From a virus, in the IMG/VR virus record IMGVR_UViG_3300042691_020330, positions 1 to 25,054 of that record: DNA of 25,054 bases; one strand, written 5' to 3'. A model generated the notes under the pieces. That model did no database searches. It was not told the DNA's origin and saw nothing but the letters and a program-made list of their open reading frames with translations. Made by a program: the position numbers and the translations under genes. Positions 10,749-18,435 of the stretch are shown one piece after another. Within the stretch, counting starts at the first letter, position 1. Each line of letters begins with the position of its first letter.

Positions 10749-11522
10749 TTATTGTGTTATGGACAATTTTTTGTCCGTTATTTGATTTTTTAAATCTAAT
10801 AGTTTCTTTATGTATCCGTTTCTTCTTAATAATTTGAAGGTTAAATTCTCATAAGAATACTCCCCACCTGAATCTAAACCACTTTGTCTGAATTTTTTAA
10901 TCCTCTTTCTTAAATCCTCAATTTTTAATAAAACATTTTCTTTTTCATCTGAATCAACAAGATTATCTATTTTTTTAGCAAATTCCTCACCCTTATCTAA
11001 AATCTTTCTATCATCAATATTAGGTGTTTCTTTCTTGGGTTGAATAATCCATTCATCGTTTAACACAGAATAAACCCCTGAGGAAATGTGTGGTTCATTG
11101 ATATCTTGAACATAAAGTTCAACATCAAACCCTTTAATTTTAATATTATGTTTTTCATTCCATACATTTTTTTTCGCATCAAAAAACTCCTTCATTATTG
11201 TATGTAATGCAACTGAATCTTTTTTATTATCTTTATCTAATTCATCGAAATCGATTAAAATATGTAAATCAACATCAGAATATTCAGACCAATTGTAATT
11301 TGCTAATGATCCAGTGAGGACTATATCGTGTATAAAAAACTCAACACCTAAGGATTCAATAAAGTCATCAGATATTTGTAATAACCTTTTTCTGAGATCT
11401 TCCCTCATTTTTAAGGTTGGTCTATGAAAAATCAATGAACACAGTGTATCCTTTGTTTTAAAAGATTTTACTATCTTTTCATCTCCTTCCCTATCTTCAA
11501 TCAATTCTTCAAATAAACTCAT
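10749..11522 (-). CDS. Pol-beta-superfamily nucleotidyltransferase, 257 aa
   Basis: The active-site signature is clear: LTGSLANYNWSEYSDVDLHI gives the helix GS (Gly71-Ser72) followed by SDxD (Ser82, Asp83, Asp85), with a third acidic residue in GFDVELYV near Asp133/Glu135. Such enzymes transfer a nucleotide from NTP to RNA, protein or a small molecule. The C-terminal part (about 200-250: RKRIKKFRQSGLDSGGEYSY, NLTFKLLRRNGYIKKLL) is a helical domain seen with this kind of phage enzyme, as far as I recall. The substrate cannot be told. It overlaps the upstream KTSC gene by four bases (ATGA). No antitoxin partner is obvious, although the small KTSC protein is in that position. Confidence 0.85.
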   Translation of the reverse strand: MSLFEELIEDREGDEKIVKSFKTKDTLCSLIFHRPTLKMREDLRKRLLQISDDFIESLGVEFFIHDIVLTGSLANYNWSEYSDVDLHILIDFDELDKDNKKDSVALHTIMKEFFDAKKNVWNEKHNIKIKGFDVELYVQDINEPHISSGVYSVLNDEWIIQPKKETPNIDDRKILDKGEEFAKKIDNLVDSDEKENVLLKIEDLRKRIKKFRQSGLDSGGEYSYENLTFKLLRRNGYIKKLLDLKNQITDKKLSITQ

Positions 11523-11832: not shown

Positions 11833-12204
11833 TTAATTTAGAGAAATTAACCTCTCCAAATTTTTTTTCTTGTCTTTTGGTAATATCAGTTCTAATATTC
11901 CATTCTCAACCTTACCTACGATATCTTTTTCTTTAACATCATCTGGTAATATGTAAGATTTCCTAAAACCACTTACAAATCGTGTTTTGTCTGTTTTCTC
12001 CTCTGTTTCAAAAGAAATAGTTAAAACACTATCCTTTGTGGTAATTTTTATGTCTTCTTTTGTGAGACCTGGAACACTCATCAATATTTTGTAATCGCTT
12101 TCAGTCTTACTAATATTGATTTGTGGTACTGAAGTACCAACATAAGATGGTTCGAAAACTTTATCGAACACATCAAAAAACGGATCTTTAAATAATGTTA
12201 TCAT
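11833..12204 (-). CDS. Small heat-shock protein, Hsp20/alpha-crystallin family
   Basis: The 123-residue protein has a short N-terminal arm (MITLFKDPFFDVFDKVF), then a full alpha-crystallin domain (about 27-115). Hallmarks are SDYKILMSVPGLTKEDIKIT, LTISFETEE, the loop before GFRKSYILPDDV, and the C-terminal motif VENGILELILPKD. A short tail includes the IxL-like ERLISLN. Such chaperones hold unfolding proteins in an ATP-independent way and pass them to Clp/Hsp100 or Hsp70 machines. It is transcribed divergently from an Hsp100-family gene (ClpC), and the shared 157-nt gap carries an iterated element. T4-like phages of other hosts also carry hsp20 genes. I see no convincing host-type -7 box on this strand. 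Confidence 0.95.
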   Translation of the reverse strand: MITLFKDPFFDVFDKVFEPSYVGTSVPQINISKTESDYKILMSVPGLTKEDIKITTKDSVLTISFETEEKTDKTRFVSGFRKSYILPDDVKEKDIVGKVENGILELILPKDKKKNLERLISLN

Positions 12205-12361: not shown

Positions 12362-14380
12362 ATGCCAGTGGATTTCTTTGAAGACGGACAAACAACAAAC
12401 CCAAAACGTATACGTAAGGGTTCAGAAACACCAATACTTGATAACTTTAGTAGGGACTTAACAAAACTTGCTGAAGAGGGTAAAATTGACCCTGTTATTG
12501 GTAGGGATAAAGAAGTGAAAAGAATCGCACAAATTTTATCAAGAAAGAAAAAAAATAATGCGGTAATCGTGGGTGAAGCTGGTGTCGGTAAATCCGCGTT
12601 AGTGGAGAAATTAGCTTTATCGATAAAAGAAGGTAACTGTCCTTCAAGTCTTATTGATAAAAGGATAGTATCTTTAGATTTAACGTCATTAGTTGCGGGT
12701 ACAAAATATCGAGGACAATTTGAGGAGAGGATAAAGGCTATATTAAACGAATTACAAGAAATAAAAAATATTGTAATTTTTATCGACGAACTACATACTA
12801 TGATTGGAGCGGGTAACGCGAGTGGTTCCATGGACGCAGCTAACATATTAAAACCCGCATTAGCAAGAGGTGAGATTCAATGTATTGGTGCAACCACATT
12901 TGATGAATATAAAAAACATCTTGAAAAAGATTCTGCATTAGTTAGAAGATTCCAAAAAATAATTTTGTCGGAACCAACAGAAAAAGAAACAATCGACATT
13001 TTAACTAACCTTAAAAAGTCTTATGAAGATTATCATAAGGTTGTTTATGGTGACAATGTAATTGAAACAATTGTAAAACTTTCAAAACGATTCATCACTG
13101 ATAGACAATTTCCTGATAAGGCAATTGATATTATGGATGAACTTGGTTCAGAAAAAAAGATTTCAAACAAAACTCCCGATTCAATTGAGAAATTGAAAAA
13201 AGATGTTGACGATATCAGAGAGAAAAAAATCATGGTAGTTAAATCTCAAGATTATGAACAAGCAGCCAAACTAAGAGATGAAGAAAAAAAAATAAATCTA
13301 AAATTAGAAAGTGAAAAGAAAAAGTGGATTGATAATTTAAAGAATAATAAAGTACCAATTTCTTTAGATGATGTATATGAAATAGTTACACAAATAACGG
13401 GTGTACCTATTACAAAATTAGATGATAAAGAAACTGAAAAACTATTGAAACTAGAAGAGGTCCTTACTTCAAAAGTAATAGGTCAAGACGAGGCAATAGG
13501 TGTAATATCTAAATCAATTAGAAGAAACAGGGTGGGAATTAAAGACACCAGTAGACCTATTGGTTCTTTTATCTTCTTAGGGTCTACTGGTGTTGGTAAA
13601 ACTTTCTTAGCGAAATCAATTGCAGAAATTTTATTTGGGGATCCTGAAAAAATCATTCGTGTTGATATGAGTGAATTTATGGAAAAACACAACGTGTCAA
13701 AATTAATTGGTTCTCCTCCAGGATATGTTGGTTATGATGAGGGTGGTCAATTAACAGAAAGAGTTAAAAACAACCCATTCTCTGTAATTCTTTTCGATGA
13801 AATTGAAAAGGCTCACAAAGATGTCTTCAATATACTATTACAAATTTTAGATGAAGGACATTTAACAGATTCATTTGGTAGAAAAGTAAACTTCACAAAT
13901 ACAATCATTATCATGACTTCAAATGTTGGAGCAAAAAAAGTATCTGATTTTGGTGGTGGTGTTGGATTTTCTACGTCTTCTTCCGAACAACAAAAATATG
14001 AGGTTAGAAAATCAATAATTCAAAAAGCACTAAAACAACAGTTTAATCCTGAATTTCTTAATCGTATTGATGATGTAATTTTATTTAACCATTTAAGTGA
14101 AGATGTTCTTAAAAAAATTGTGTTCATTGAAATGGGTAAATTAATTAAAAGATTAACAGAAAAGAACTATAAAATAACTTTTGATAAATCTGTAATTAAT
14201 AAAATATTCGAATTGAATTCACAAGAAGAATATGGTGCAAGACCTATAAAAAGAATAATTCAGAATCTTTGTGAAGATTTTTTGAGTGAAGAGATTTTAA
14301 AAGGTAACATCATTGAAAATCAACAGATTTCGATAAAATGGAAAGACGATAAATTAAACATTGTGAAAAAAATATTGTAA
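12362..14380 (+). CDS. clpC: ClpC-type AAA+ unfoldase lacking the N-terminal adaptor domain
   Basis: The 672-residue Hsp100 ATPase has two AAA+ modules. D1 has Walker A GEAGVGKS at 71-78 and Walker B VIFIDE at 138-143. D2 has Walker A GSTGVGKT at 407-414, pore loop GYVG at 454-457 and Walker B ILFDE at 476-480, then the C-terminal small domain. The middle insert is short and contains a UVR-like helix (QDYEQAAKLRDEEKK, 296-310), the mark of ClpC rather than ClpB. The D2 loop SDFGGGVGF (528-536) carries VGF, the ClpP-docking tripeptide. Host ClpC is about 840 residues; here the first ~150 (N-domain) are gone and the protein starts in the acidic linker (MPVDFFEDG) just before TPILDNFSRDLTKLAEEGK. 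It probably unfolds proteins for host ClpP with altered substrate choice (inference). Confidence 0.94.
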   Translation: MPVDFFEDGQTTNPKRIRKGSETPILDNFSRDLTKLAEEGKIDPVIGRDKEVKRIAQILSRKKKNNAVIVGEAGVGKSALVEKLALSIKEGNCPSSLIDKRIVSLDLTSLVAGTKYRGQFEERIKAILNELQEIKNIVIFIDELHTMIGAGNASGSMDAANILKPALARGEIQCIGATTFDEYKKHLEKDSALVRRFQKIILSEPTEKETIDILTNLKKSYEDYHKVVYGDNVIETIVKLSKRFITDRQFPDKAIDIMDELGSEKKISNKTPDSIEKLKKDVDDIREKKIMVVKSQDYEQAAKLRDEEKKINLKLESEKKKWIDNLKNNKVPISLDDVYEIVTQITGVPITKLDDKETEKLLKLEEVLTSKVIGQDEAIGVISKSIRRNRVGIKDTSRPIGSFIFLGSTGVGKTFLAKSIAEILFGDPEKIIRVDMSEFMEKHNVSKLIGSPPGYVGYDEGGQLTERVKNNPFSVILFDEIEKAHKDVFNILLQILDEGHLTDSFGRKVNFTNTIIIMTSNVGAKKVSDFGGGVGFSTSSSEQQKYEVRKSIIQKALKQQFNPEFLNRIDDVILFNHLSEDVLKKIVFIEMGKLIKRLTEKNYKITFDKSVINKIFELNSQEEYGARPIKRIIQNLCEDFLSEEILKGNIIENQQISIKWKDDKLNIVKKIL

Positions 14381-14555: not shown

Positions 14556-14747
14556 ATGAAGAAATACATTTTATTCTTGATTGCTATTGCTACATTTGCA
14601 ATGGTGTCCTGTGGTTCAGGGTCAACCACAACTGAAACAACTGACTCTGCGGCGGTAGAAGTTGATACAACAGCATCTGTTGTGGATTCAACTAATGTCG
14701 AAGCACCGGCTGGTGGTGGTTCTGATACAGAACAACCAATTAAGTAA
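14556..14747 (+). CDS. Small lipoprotein, 63 aa
   Basis: The sequence has a classic lipoprotein signal: MKKYILFLIAIATFAMVSC, with the lipobox Cys19 followed by GSGS. The mature 45 residues are Thr/Ser/Val/Asp/Glu-rich and lack predicted structure, ending GGGSDTEQPIK. It should be lipidated and anchored in a host membrane after signal peptidase II cleavage. It is a monocistronic gene, bounded by terminators at 14495-14524 and 14753-14780. A TATATTTA sequence (7/8 match to TAnnTTTG) ends only 5 nt before the ATG. Its role is unknown. Superinfection exclusion is one known use of small phage lipoproteins, but nothing here shows that. Confidence 0.8.
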   Translation: MKKYILFLIAIATFAMVSCGSGSTTTETTDSAAVEVDTTASVVDSTNVEAPAGGGSDTEQPIK

Positions 14748-14752
14748 AATAT

Positions 14753-14780
14753 GGGCCGGTATCAACACCGGCCCTCTTTT
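14753..14780 (+). terminator. Intrinsic terminator after the lipoprotein gene
   Basis: GGGCCGGT / ACCGGCCC is a perfect 8-bp GC-rich stem with the loop ATCAAC, followed by TCTTTT. It starts 5 nt after the lipoprotein stop and ends 13 nt before the kinase start. Confidence 0.93.
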
Positions 14781-14793
14781 AAATTTATTTAAA

Positions 14794-15213
14794 ATGGAAT
14801 ATGTTGGTGATTTAATATTATTAAGAGGTTTACCGGGTAGTGGTAAATCAACTTTAGGTGAGGTAATCCTTAAAACACACGGATTAAATAACACTAATTA
14901 TGTTTTATCCGCAGATGATTTTTTTATAGACGAAAAGGGAAATTATAATTTTGACCCAACAAAATTAAAAGAAGCTCACAATAGTTGTCAATTAAAATGT
15001 GCGGAGAGAATGAAATTACAATTATCTAAGATTGTAATTGCAAATACTTTTACACAAGAGTGGGAAATGGATATATATTTTGAAATGGCCGAAAGATATC
15101 ATTATAGGGTACACACTATAATAGTTGAAAATAGACACGGAAACAAAAATATACATGGTGTTCCTGAAGATAAACTTCAAATAATGAAAGATAGGTTCAA
15201 CATTGAGTTGTAA
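14794..15213 (+). CDS. P-loop polynucleotide-kinase-like ATPase, 139 aa
   Basis: I chose the ATG at 14794; longer frames upstream would run back through the terminator at 14753-14780 and the lipoprotein gene. The product has Walker A RGLPGSGKST (11-20), LSADDFF at 39-44, KLKEAHNSCQLKCAERM at 58-73 and VIANTFTQEWEMDIYFEMA near 81-99. These match the AAA_33/N4BP2-like kinase group that includes the kinase half of T4 Pnkp. These enzymes phosphorylate 5'-OH ends of RNA or DNA. T4 Pnkp has a C-terminal 3'-phosphatase of the HAD type; this protein stops after the kinase. It is followed by an RNA ligase and, three genes on, a cREC protein, so a role in RNA repair is likely. Confidence 0.85.
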   Translation: MEYVGDLILLRGLPGSGKSTLGEVILKTHGLNNTNYVLSADDFFIDEKGNYNFDPTKLKEAHNSCQLKCAERMKLQLSKIVIANTFTQEWEMDIYFEMAERYHYRVHTIIVENRHGNKNIHGVPEDKLQIMKDRFNIEL

Positions 15214-15261
15214 TGAGCAAATTTTTTATTTCTTTTTACAAATCATCATATCCTGAAAAAA

Positions 15262-16317
15262 GTGCAAGTAGAGTTTTTAAATACATTAGAAGAATATTAT
15301 CAAAATGGTTTGTTATTAAAACAAACACACCCAAATCATGATTTAACTATTTGGAACTATTCCCCTAAAGTCCAATACGAAAGATTATGGGATGAAATTA
15401 CAATACAATGTCGAGGATTAGTTACCAATTCAGAAGGTAAAATTATTGCAAGACCATTTAAGAAATTCTTCAACTATGAGGAACACAAACCAGAAGACAT
15501 ACCAAATGAAGATTATGTTGTTTATGAAAAACTAGATGGTTCATTAGGTATACTTTTTAATTATAAAAATGAGTGGATTTTAGCCACCCGTGGATCTTTT
15601 AAATCACCACAATCAATTAAAGGAAAAGAAATTCTTGATAGACACGACATCAGTGCGTGGAGAAAAGATAATACATATTTGTTTGAAATTATTTATCCCG
15701 AAAATAGAATTGTTGTTGATTATGGTAATGAAGAAAAATTAGTTGTTATAGGTGGTGTTCATACCGAAACTGGTGAAGAGATACCTGATAGTAGTTTATT
15801 TTGGACACAAGACTCAGGATTTGAAGTTGTGACAACATATAAGACATGGGGAGAGGGTTATGATTTATTAAAAGAGGAAATTAGTAAAGACAAAGAAGGA
15901 TATGTGATTCGTTTTAAAAATGGTTTTCGTATGAAAATCAAGGGTGAAGAATATAAACGACTACATAGAATACTAACTAACATATCTAATAGAGATATTT
16001 GGGAGTATCTAAAAGATGGTAAACCTTTAGATGAAATATTAGATAAAGTACCCGATGAATTTTATAATTGGGTTAAAGAAACTAAGAATACACTAGAAAC
16101 AGATTATTCCAAAATTGAAAACGAATATATTTGGATTTATAAAATTTTAAGTCGTGATGAAAAAATTAACGGTAGAAAGATATTTGCTGAATATGCTTTG
16201 AAATACAAACACCCATCAATATTATTTTCTATGTATGATAATAGGGATTATAAAAACATAATTTGGAAAATACTATATCCGAATTATTCTAAACCATTTA
16301 AAAAGGATGATGAATAA
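15262..16317 (+). CDS. RNA ligase, T4 Rnl1 (RnlA) type
   Basis: The 351-residue protein carries nucleotidyltransferase motifs in order. CRGLV is at 50-54 and ARPFKKFFNYEE at 63-74. Motif I, EKLDGS, has the AMP-accepting Lys90. Motif III-like YLFEIIYP is at 139-146, motif IV EGYVIRF at 212-218 and motif V MKIKGEEY at 224-231. A helical C-terminal region of about 110 residues follows. T4 Rnl1 is 374 residues. Such ligases join 5'-phosphate and 3'-OH RNA ends, classically to reseal tRNA anticodon loops cut by host nucleases. The start is GTG at 15262 (no ATG before the motifs); a second in-frame stop at 15214 bounds it upstream. It lies 48 nt after the kinase and overlaps the next gene by 11 nt. 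Confidence 0.92.
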   Translation: MQVEFLNTLEEYYQNGLLLKQTHPNHDLTIWNYSPKVQYERLWDEITIQCRGLVTNSEGKIIARPFKKFFNYEEHKPEDIPNEDYVVYEKLDGSLGILFNYKNEWILATRGSFKSPQSIKGKEILDRHDISAWRKDNTYLFEIIYPENRIVVDYGNEEKLVVIGGVHTETGEEIPDSSLFWTQDSGFEVVTTYKTWGEGYDLLKEEISKDKEGYVIRFKNGFRMKIKGEEYKRLHRILTNISNRDIWEYLKDGKPLDEILDKVPDEFYNWVKETKNTLETDYSKIENEYIWIYKILSRDEKINGRKIFAEYALKYKHPSILFSMYDNRDYKNIIWKILYPNYSKPFKKDDE

Positions 16318-16930
16318 TTTATACGTGTGTGGAGATAGCTTTGTTGATTGGGATACACCTGAAACACATTGGATTGATTATTTGTCCAATCATTATAATG
16401 TTGTAAAATTAGGTAAGTATGGTTCTGATAACCATTCTATCCTATACCAAACCGGTTTAATATCTAATTATTTAGAAGGTGATAGAATCGTAATTGTGTT
16501 CACCGCACCCGGTAGATTTCCGAGAAGGTATTTTGGTGAGAGAGAAATTAATCAGGATATTAAATACATATCATGGGAATGGTATAAAAATAAAGAATTT
16601 GCTAAACAACTTATGGAATTGCGAATTTTAGAAACGGAAAGATGGTTAAACGGTGAAAGAGATTCAGAAATCATGTTTCTAAAAAAAGTTAAATTATTTT
16701 ATAAGGATTTTGAACCGGTTTTTGTGACATGGAATGAAGACTTTTATAAAATGACAAGCGATTTCGTAGAATTAATAAATGTAACATCTATATCTGATGA
16801 GGGTGGTGATAAAAATGATTGGCATCCAGGTTGGAAAGGCTGTTATGAATTTTACAAAAGACTACACCATTTATTAGGTATTAAAGAAAATGTTGTGAGT
16901 TATATTGATAAAATTGATAAACTATTATGA
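16307..16930 (+). CDS. SGNH/GDSL-hydrolase-like protein, 207 aa
   Basis: The N-terminus MMNNLYVCGDSFVDWDTPETHW places GDS (9-11) right after a first beta-strand, as in block I of SGNH hydrolases. A Gly in KYGSDNHS (39-40) could serve as block II. Near the C-terminus DKNDWHPGW (168-176) supplies an Asp171/His173 pair as in block V. Block III (usually GxND) is not conserved: FTAPGRF stands there. The protein is therefore SGNH-like by pattern, but its catalytic competence and substrate are uncertain. Possible jobs are esterase or deacylase activity on a modified nucleotide or a tRNA-linked group, given its place between an RNA ligase and a 2OG oxygenase. It overlaps both neighbours, so it is coupled. 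A second ATG at 16310 is an alternative start. Confidence 0.75.
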   Translation: MMNNLYVCGDSFVDWDTPETHWIDYLSNHYNVVKLGKYGSDNHSILYQTGLISNYLEGDRIVIVFTAPGRFPRRYFGEREINQDIKYISWEWYKNKEFAKQLMELRILETERWLNGERDSEIMFLKKVKLFYKDFEPVFVTWNEDFYKMTSDFVELINVTSISDEGGDKNDWHPGWKGCYEFYKRLHHLLGIKENVVSYIDKIDKLL

Positions 16931-17445
16931 GATTATCTAACGAGGAAATTAATTTTTTATTGAATGAATTATCTAATGCGACCTTAATGAATGAGGATGA
17001 GATAAAATATATAATGAAGGCACATCCACAACTATATTACACTTTGGATGGAAAGAGGGAAGATGGGGTATCATTATTTACAGAAAAAAGTTATATCTAT
17101 AGTTTAAGTAACAACAATTTAAAAAAATTTTTATCAGAAAAATTCAACGAAGATGTAAGTGATGTTTATTCCATACATAAACTAATTTACGGTGTTGGTG
17201 GTGTGGCTAAAAGACATAGGGATAGATTCACAACACATAAGACAGTTAGTATTATTTTATCTGATAAATTTAAAGGTGGGGACATGTACGTAAATGATGA
17301 ATTTGTGGAGATGAATTCTTTAGGTGATTACGTCATATTTGACGGGGCAAAAGATGTACATGAAGTAAAAGAAATAACCGACGGTAAAAGAGAAGTACTA
17401 ATAATATGGTTTTCAAAAAAACCAGCAAAATTTAATTTAATATAA
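16927..17445 (+). CDS. 2-oxoglutarate/Fe(II)-dependent oxygenase, 172 aa
   Basis: The double-stranded beta-helix signature of prolyl-4-hydroxylase-type oxygenases is visible. The proximal HxD is in GGVAKRHRDRF (His97, Asp99), followed by TVSIILSDKFKGGDMYV (106-122). The distal His145 is in GAKDVHEVKEI, and a basic 2OG-binding residue in DGKREVLIIWF (Arg155). These enzymes hydroxylate proteins, nucleic acids or small molecules. The N-terminal 80 residues are helical and not assigned. The start overlaps the SGNH-like gene (ATGA) and the stop overlaps the next start (TAATG). The context with ligase and kinase suggests an RNA or translation-factor substrate, but this is inference. Confidence 0.85.
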   Translation: MRLSNEEINFLLNELSNATLMNEDEIKYIMKAHPQLYYTLDGKREDGVSLFTEKSYIYSLSNNNLKKFLSEKFNEDVSDVYSIHKLIYGVGGVAKRHRDRFTTHKTVSIILSDKFKGGDMYVNDEFVEMNSLGDYVIFDGAKDVHEVKEITDGKREVLIIWFSKKPAKFNLI

Positions 17446-17927
17446 TGGAAACACAAAAAAAGAGGCTTTATTTAGATGATGTTAGAACACCAATAAGTGA
17501 AGACTGGATAATTGCACGTGATTATGATGAATTTGTAAAACAAGTTAATTTATATGGTTTGGAGTCATTTGACGTGATTTCTTTAGATCACGATTTAGGT
17601 GAAGGTGCAATGGTTGAGTATTACACAAATGTAAAAAATAACTTTACATTAGATTATAAAAACATTGAAGAAAAAACAGGTATGGATTGTTGTAAATTTT
17701 TAGTTAGTTTGAGTATGACTAAAAATATACCACTTCCACAAATATATGTCCATTCTGCAAACCCTATTGGTAGTGCTAATATGATGGGATACATAAACAA
17801 TTACCTAATGAATTCTCGTCTACCACAAACCTGTATAAGAGTAACAATAGAACATACAATACACGAGAGTCACCTTATTTCACCCGAACTAAGAAAAGCT
17901 AAATGGGATAGAAGTATAAAAAAATAA
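17445..17927 (+). CDS. cREC-type receiver-like protein (predicted cyclic-phosphate processing), 160 aa
   Basis: The sequence matches what I recall of the cREC family, a receiver-fold domain described by comparative genomics as linked to RNA end processing. LYLDDVRTP is at 8-16 (acidic pair Asp11/Asp12), a helix DYDEFVKQV follows, then VISLDHDLGEG at 44-54 (Asp48, His49, Asp50). TGMDCCKFL is at 78-86, and IYVHSANPIGSANMMGYI at 100-117. It lacks any sign of a response-regulator output domain. The family is predicted to act on 2',3'-cyclic phosphate RNA ends; I know of no direct proof. As last gene of the kinase-ligase operon it could supply the 3'-end healing step missing from the kinase. It begins at the stop of the oxygenase gene (TAATG). 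Confidence 0.72.
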   Translation: METQKKRLYLDDVRTPISEDWIIARDYDEFVKQVNLYGLESFDVISLDHDLGEGAMVEYYTNVKNNFTLDYKNIEEKTGMDCCKFLVSLSMTKNIPLPQIYVHSANPIGSANMMGYINNYLMNSRLPQTCIRVTIEHTIHESHLISPELRKAKWDRSIKK

Positions 17928-18022: not shown

Positions 18023-18340
18023 ATGCCCAGGACTAAAATCTTTAAGGAACTTGTCTTCAAAAAGAAGTACAAGTCCTACCACGAATTTCACTACGAAAAC
18101 AAAGAAAAAATTTACAAATCAATAGTTGAATTGTTTTCTGAATTTCAAATAGTTAGAAACAAAACCTTATCTATTACAATAAGTGCAAAAATTGAAAACA
18201 TTGACTGGACTACAGAGCTACTTTTCAATAAAAATGAAGTTGACATTTTGAAAAAAGATTTAATGGGTTACTTCGAAGATATTGAAGATTACGAAACTTG
18301 TTCAACAATAATTTCTTTATCAAATAACTTGACAAAATAA
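18023..18340 (+). CDS. Hypothetical protein, 105 aa, behind a host promoter
   Basis: No family recognised. The protein starts MPRTKIFKELVFKKKYKSYH, with a basic N-terminus, then a helix (NKEKIYKSIVELFSEF) and a strand pair (KTLSITISAKI, WTTELLFN). An acidic helical end follows (DILKKDLMGYFEDIEDYE). There is no signal peptide or membrane segment. It is monocistronic, with a strong host-type promoter and the bidirectional terminator at 18405-18435. Small soluble proteins expressed from host promoters in large phages are often early host-takeover factors; that is inference from context. Confidence 0.78.
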   Translation: MPRTKIFKELVFKKKYKSYHEFHYENKEKIYKSIVELFSEFQIVRNKTLSITISAKIENIDWTTELLFNKNEVDILKKDLMGYFEDIEDYETCSTIISLSNNLTK

Positions 18341-18404: not shown

Positions 18405-18435
18405 AACCCCCCTCCGTTCTCGGTGGGGGTTTTTT
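18405..18435. terminator. Bidirectional terminator between convergent genes
   Basis: CCCCCTCCG / CGGTGGGGG forms a GC-rich stem (one T-T mismatch) with the loop TTCT, followed by TTTTTT on the plus side. It separates the plus-strand gene ending at 18340 from the minus-strand gene ending at 18434, whose stop codon abuts the T run. The minus-strand T run is poor, so its main direction is plus. Confidence 0.8.

Follow-up and report, generated by a model that had tools for sequence, protein, structure and literature searches.

What finishes the 3' end of a cut RNA in a phage whose polynucleotide kinase lacks the phosphatase domain carried by the enzyme of T4? The question is raised by IMG/VR virus record IMGVR_UViG_3300042691_020330, positions 1 to 25,054 of which were analysed here (the window, 25,054 nucleotides). 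One cassette of this stretch encodes a short kinase, an RNA ligase of the Rnl1 type and cREC, a protein with a cyclic-phosphate-processing receiver domain. A preliminary description made from the sequence had placed the cassette at 14794-17927; these limits are exact, from the ATG of the kinase to the stop codon of cREC, and the identities given there to the three genes are supported by profile matches:

14794..15213, + strand: standalone 5'-OH polynucleotide kinase of the Pnkp kinase-domain type, 139 aa (PF13671 AAA_33, 3.8e-12; phrog_2071, 7e-36; phrog_505 'polynucleotide kinase', 4e-7)
15262..16317, + strand: Rnl1-type ATP-dependent RNA ligase, 351 aa, GTG start (PF09511, 7e-19, 69 bits against a cut-off of 28.3; phrog_562, 1e-71)
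17445..17927, + strand: cREC protein, 160 aa (PF20274, 2.3e-21, 76.7 bits against a cut-off of 27)

The three genes are linked in related phages far beyond chance. The reading favoured here takes the cassette for a phage module of RNA repair whose healing work is divided: the kinase would treat the 5' end, cREC would open a cyclic phosphate at the 3' end, and a separate phosphatase would complete that end before ligation. As a full scheme, this stands about equal chances of being right or wrong.

The kinase, the ligase and cREC

The absence of a phosphatase from the kinase, as claimed in the preliminary description, is borne out: the protein is only 139 aa and aligns to residues 1-148 of T4 Pnkp and to nothing beyond them. 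This is the nearest structure to the kinase model (pLDDT 85), with a VIA Z of 14.6 and rmsd 2.6 over 133 aligned residues. The match of the window to phrog_505, like nearly all of those from its relatives, covers only the kinase half of that profile. The P-loop (G12..K18), D41, N113 and H115 are invariant in 31 aligned homologues. The next-nearest structures to the model are O-phosphoseryl-tRNA kinase (Z 13.9) and the kinase domain of Clostridium Pnkp (Z 13.6); because the former scores so close to T4 Pnkp, the fold alone cannot fix the substrate. Judged by its fold, the protein would be a polynucleotide kinase in the first place, and a tRNA-linked kinase fits almost as well.

The ligase matches phrog_562 over nearly its full length (residues 14-348), a span that reaches into the C-terminal part, where a tRNA-specificity domain like that of the Rnl1 family may lie, and aligns to T4 Rnl1 (2c5u) with E 2e-15. 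The nucleotidyltransferase motifs KxDG, FE..., EGYV and KxK are present at 90, 141, 212 and 225, which accounts for the motif of the catalytic lysine along with motifs III to V, and K90-x-D92-G93 (motif I), R149, E212-G213 and K225-x-K227 are invariant or nearly so in 76 homologues. The score of 76.4 bits against the T4 RnlA equivalog (TIGR02308, NCBIfam) is below its cut-off of 242, so that the protein is called Rnl1-type only. The family assignments of both kinase and ligase are very likely to be correct.

In two relatives (L067 and L069) the ligase gene is interrupted by about 1.1 kb, with a LAGLIDADG open reading frame (ORF) just before (L067:3015-6011); an Rfam intron search of L067 found none. 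In L020, a GIY-YIG/NUMOD1 homing endonuclease lies between the ligase and cREC (1275-2048).

All 39 aligned cREC homologues match PF20274. The cREC model (pLDDT 94) gave nothing significant against the PDB with Foldseek alone (best E 0.02), nor did a sequence search of the PDB, and the receiver fold is seen only on VIA re-alignment, with Z 10.5 and rmsd 2.8 over 96 aligned residues for the REC domain of RpfC and with many other receivers besides. D11, D12, R14, D48, H49, D50, T78, G79, H103, N106, G109 and N112 are invariant across phage families that are 34–39% identical to the cREC of the window. This pattern, with its DD, DHD and H..N motifs, has the appearance of an active site. No Lys is among the residues listed as conserved in 77 cREC homologues; the canonical receiver Lys sits in beta5-alpha5, although these positions were not superposed.

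The domain was defined in jumbo phages, as cRec, with cADPr or 2',3'-cyclic nucleotides as predicted substrates and with RNA ligase genes reported in shared operons (Iyer et al. 2021, PMC7824862). Action on 2',3'-cyclic phosphates by cREC proteins that accompany RNA ligases has thus been predicted before (PMC7824862; Iyer et al. 2022, PMC9503650), and that the cREC of this cassette is an RNA cyclic-phosphate enzyme may be put at an even chance. Should cREC prove to open cyclic phosphates, it would be an RNA-repair enzyme made from the fold of a signalling protein. In a metagenome-assembled genome from the Spirochaetes (L242:5998-6873), one gene encodes cREC joined to an RNA 2'-O-methyltransferase of the SpoU type, which may be taken as independent support for an RNA-linked role.

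Conservation of the linkage and known systems

A search for kinase-ligase-cREC neighbours in other phages, as the preliminary description had suggested, was productive. IMG/VR loci were fetched by scans with cREC, ligase and SGNH queries, and similar proteins were clustered, giving 78 locus clusters. The kinase is present at 76 of 80 ligase loci and cREC at 62 of them; conversely, the ligase is present at 64 of 80 cREC loci and the kinase at 62. Kinase, Rnl1 and cREC occur together in 48 of the 78 clusters. In most of these the ClpA/C-like and lipoprotein genes come first, the three follow as kinase, ligase and cREC, and a 105-aa gene is last; in most loci with all three the ligase stop and the cREC start overlap by 8-17 bp. 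In many relatives there is also a conserved ORF of about 80 aa between kinase and ligase (for example L006:4699-4938), which is not present in the window. A host-borne cassette of these three genes was considered and rejected, there being no match to the kinase and ligase profiles used here in the vicinity of 77 bacterial cREC loci.

Other phages, among them distant ones such as Ochrobactrum phage OC and the rV5-like coliphages, group the genes differently. In the L042 group the order is kinase, unknown gene, calcineurin-like phosphoesterase (MPP), Rnl1, cREC, while in L058 an MPP gene ends on the first base of cREC, after which come the kinase, Prs, nicotinamide phosphoribosyltransferase and Rnl1. 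The Prs (ribose-phosphate pyrophosphokinase-like) and nicotinamide phosphoribosyltransferase genes of L058 (7659-10029) belong to NAD salvage, and Pseudomonas phage M5.1 and also Vibrio phage Achelous have similar ones. In Achelous a short kinase lies next to an RNA ligase and MPP, and in M5.1 these are a few genes apart. Two tRNA genes lie downstream of the cassette in L144.

Among the closest described systems is the 'V5-type' neighbourhood of the Vequintaviruses rV5 and JES2013 (Iyer et al. 2022, PMC9503650), which like the window has a T4-like Rnl1, cREC and a short standalone kinase. The kinase of JES2013 is 43% identical to that of the window and has MPP beside it. In JES2013 and rV5_ev156, one strand carries Rnl1 and Sir2, separated by a further gene (cREC in JES2013), the other strand carries the kinase and then MPP, and there are tRNA genes nearby. 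The grouping of Rnl1, cREC and a nucleotide kinase by which the V5-type is recognised is present in the window. The V5-type also has a sirtuin and a MazG-type gene, whereas the cassette of the window is one co-directional kinase-ligase-cREC unit with neither sirtuin nor MPP inside; SIR2 is found in one of 17 related phage records, and the genome in the window is incomplete. The cassette is of the V5-type kind, without a sirtuin and with phosphatases outside the operon.

With the T4 pair of Pnkp (pseT) and Rnl1 (rnlA) the window shares the fold of the kinase domain and the Rnl1 motifs, but its kinase has no HAD phosphatase domain, cREC has been added, and its ligase is far under the RnlA equivalog cut-off (76 against 242 bits). 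Ochrobactrum phage vB_OspM_OC (phage OC) likewise has kinase, Rnl1 and cREC in one operon, ordered HAD_PNKP-cREC-Rnl1-kinase-MPP. It differs in that the Pnkp phosphatase is kept as a separate gene adjoining cREC, and its kinase is only 20% identical to that of the window. The cRec proteins of the jumbo phages belong to the same Pfam family (PF20274) as the cREC of the window and are linked in operons to RNA ligases. The clade of the window, unlike these, consists of uncultured T4-like phages with a uniform kinase-Rnl1-cREC order downstream of the ClpA/C-like and lipoprotein genes.

The cassette thus extends a published prediction and is a variant of a module predicted in other phages, not a new kind of system. 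What it adds is that in dozens of uncultured phages of the T4-like kind Rnl1 has a phosphatase-less kinase and cREC as its regular companions on either side, and that these genes occur in other arrangements in cultured phages (JES2013, OC). The cREC prediction can thereby be put to a direct test, for which three small proteins and a coliphage of the laboratory would serve.

The 3' end and a proposed healing scheme

The structural genes of this 25-kb virus record are T4-like, and its terminase is matched by about 2,400 phage records, the best by coverage and identity being the Flavobacterium phages immuto (28%). The window is probably a 25-kb piece of a genome of about 300 kb, of which about nine tenths is missing. 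Phosphatases were surveyed in 17 related phage records of 79–336 kb, most of them fragments. The Pnkp phosphatase family PF25109 was found in none of the 17; the same search found it in Tenacibaculum phage pT24, the positive control. The 'Swiss Army Knife' RNA-repair HAD domain, HAD_SAK_2 (PF18143), is present in seven (G001, G003, G004, G008, G009, G014, G016), including the three longest records of the same clade (G001, 336 kb; G003, 287 kb; G004, 311 kb). These three also encode, far from the cassette, the MPP family that is found inside the operon in other phages. In G014, HAD_SAK_2, MPP and the kinase are contiguous, with 22 tRNA genes. The preliminary description had asked whether another 3'-phosphatase is encoded elsewhere in the genome: the strict Pnkp type is absent throughout the 17 records, but other candidates, HAD_SAK_2 in seven and MPP, are present in the relatives.

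Three other routes for the 3' end were considered and rejected: a 2H phosphoesterase, with one weak match in the 17 records; the KptA route, with KptA in none of them; and the sirtuin route, with SIR2 in one.

When a 2',3'-cyclic phosphate is opened a monophosphate remains, and Rnl1 needs a 3'-OH. The preliminary description had put forward split healing in which cREC serves in place of the 3'-phosphatase. One half of this is kept, namely a kinase without a phosphatase domain that is coupled to cREC. The other half is not: substitution of cREC for the phosphatase is unlikely because ring opening leaves a phosphate, because cREC and a standalone HAD_PNKP phosphatase share one operon in phage OC, and because the three longest records of the clade carry phosphatase candidates. 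In the scheme as now proposed, a host RNase would cut tRNA to leave 2',3'-cyclic phosphate and 5'-OH ends, the short kinase would phosphorylate the 5'-OH, and cREC would turn the cyclic phosphate into a monophosphate by opening its ring. That phosphate would be removed by a separate enzyme, either or both of the calcineurin-like phosphoesterase and HAD_SAK_2, whose genes in this clade lie in other parts of the genome, and Rnl1 would join the 5'-phosphate to the 3'-OH. The purpose may be counter-defence against anticodon nucleases, by analogy with T4 and given the tRNA genes near the cassette in some relatives.

Several observations weigh against this scheme. Kinase and ligase are kept without cREC in eight clusters, and cREC is found with neither ligase nor kinase nearby in 11 clusters as well as at the 77 bacterial loci, so that the ligase can do without cREC and cREC can occur apart from the ligase. 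The phosphatase of the phage in the window would be one predicted from its relatives. The activity of cREC is likewise predicted from genomic context, and a search of a limited library of papers for an experimental test or biochemistry of any cREC found none. Elsewhere, cREC adjoins NadR and PnuC in AhSzq-1 and overlaps a sirtuin gene in Aeromonas bivalvium. These last two associations would favour a cREC that acts on NAD or ADP-ribose derivatives (cADPr, Appr>p) or on cyclic-nucleotide alarm signals rather than on RNA ends, with the cassette forming part of a wider anti-defence island. Such a role would also accord with the Sir2 gene adjoining cREC in JES2013, with the Prs and nicotinamide phosphoribosyltransferase genes between kinase and Rnl1 in L058, and with the fact that both kinds of substrate were proposed by the authors who named cREC (PMC7824862, PMC9503650). 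The tight coupling to Rnl1 argues the other way, as does the cassette of this clade, in which there is no sirtuin or KptA, with the two families as scarce in the 17 records as given above; a role of this type is accordingly judged unlikely, though not negligible.

That cREC alone might heal the 3' end, both opening and removing the cyclic phosphate in the stead of the Pnkp phosphatase, would explain why PF25109 is missing from all 17 related records and why the cREC gene is directly coupled to that of the ligase, and the acidic cluster together with the invariant H103 and N106 could suit phosphomonoester chemistry. The HAD_SAK_2 and MPP genes in the longest records of the clade, the pairing of cREC with HAD_PNKP in OC and the eight clusters that retain kinase and ligase without cREC make this quite improbable. 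In its stricter form, in which the cREC of the clade by itself would be a receiver-fold, probably metal-dependent enzyme taking a 2',3'-cyclic phosphate to a 3'-OH and making a Pnkp phosphatase unnecessary, it is very improbable. cREC might be a non-catalytic partner in a repair complex, such as an RNA-end sensor or an adaptor for the ligase or kinase. The clear receiver fold, the lack in 77 homologues of a conserved Lys like that of canonical receivers, and the gene overlap with the ligase, which suggests a complex, are consistent with this. Yet families with only about 35% identity have a dozen unvarying residues in common, H103 and the entire acidic cluster among them, as expected of an active site, and a non-catalytic role therefore appears improbable.

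Inserted and flanking genes

The five genes from kinase to cREC are open, co-directional and mostly overlapping. Two of these, and a further gene after cREC, were not named in the preliminary description, in which cREC was held to end the operon. While cREC does belong to the unit, a 105-aa gene follows it before the closing hairpin. The remaining features of the region are:

14753..14774, + strand: terminator-like hairpin, GGGCCGG...CCGGCCC then TCTTTT, separating the upstream lipoprotein gene from the cassette
16307..16930, + strand: SGNH-hydrolase-like protein, 207 aa, assigned by motif only (GDSF and DWHPG, invariant in 8 homologues)
16927..17445, + strand: 2OG-Fe(II) oxygenase, 172 aa (PF13640, 3.6e-5, 25.1 bits, just below the cut-off of 27; phrog_61, 5e-7)
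18023..18340, + strand: conserved 105-aa protein, last gene before the terminator
18411..18429, + strand: terminator-like hairpin closing the unit, CCTCCG..CGGTGGGGG plus a T run

The SGNH-like protein has no match in Pfam, PHROG, NCBIfam or the PDB, and in the oxygenase H97-x-D99...H145...R155 is conserved. The pair is present between ligase and cREC in three of the 78 clusters, spliced into the overlap of these two genes. In other phages it is among several 2OG oxygenases with a tryptophan halogenase. A core role for the pair in the repair chemistry was therefore rejected, and the pair is an inserted passenger. In L168, L169 and L178 the pair is surrounded by several 2OG oxygenases and by genes resembling sulfotransferases; L169 also has a tryptophan halogenase (by Pfam) and L168 a protein similar to it, a setting like that of secondary metabolism in a phage island. 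In L016 (5181-6002) and L047 (5175-5996) the same ligase/cREC junction holds another SGNH-like protein, unlike the first (273 aa, assigned by motif); because this second gene sits there, a functional link of SGNH to the cassette keeps some probability.

The 105-aa protein has a homologue after cREC or the ligase in most clusters, and has a weak match to ERF (E 0.014, under the cut-off). Terminator-like hairpins number 10 in the region, against 2.1 +/- 1.5 expected from shuffled sequence. An Rfam search of the window returned no RNA families, and PADLOC made no defence-system call that names the cassette.

From 12362 onward the + strand carries a ClpA/C-like ATPase, a small lipoprotein and then the cassette. 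The ClpA/C-like AAA+ unfoldase (12362-14380, + strand, 672 aa) has two AAA domains, a UvrB/C-like motif and a VGF tripeptide, a possible docking site for host ClpP. A gene for an Hsp20 chaperone (11833-12204, - strand) runs divergently from it, and both are kept beside the cassette in most relatives. The nucleotidyltransferase at 10749-11522 (- strand) has an intact GS...DVD motif (PF01909, 1.7e-4; phrog_36119), is conserved in the same neighbourhood, and is possibly tRNA- or nucleotide-modifying. The small lipoprotein (14556-14747), conserved directly upstream of the kinase, resembles the PG1828 family (NF050142, E 7e-12, slightly under the cut-off) and could be a superinfection-exclusion factor.

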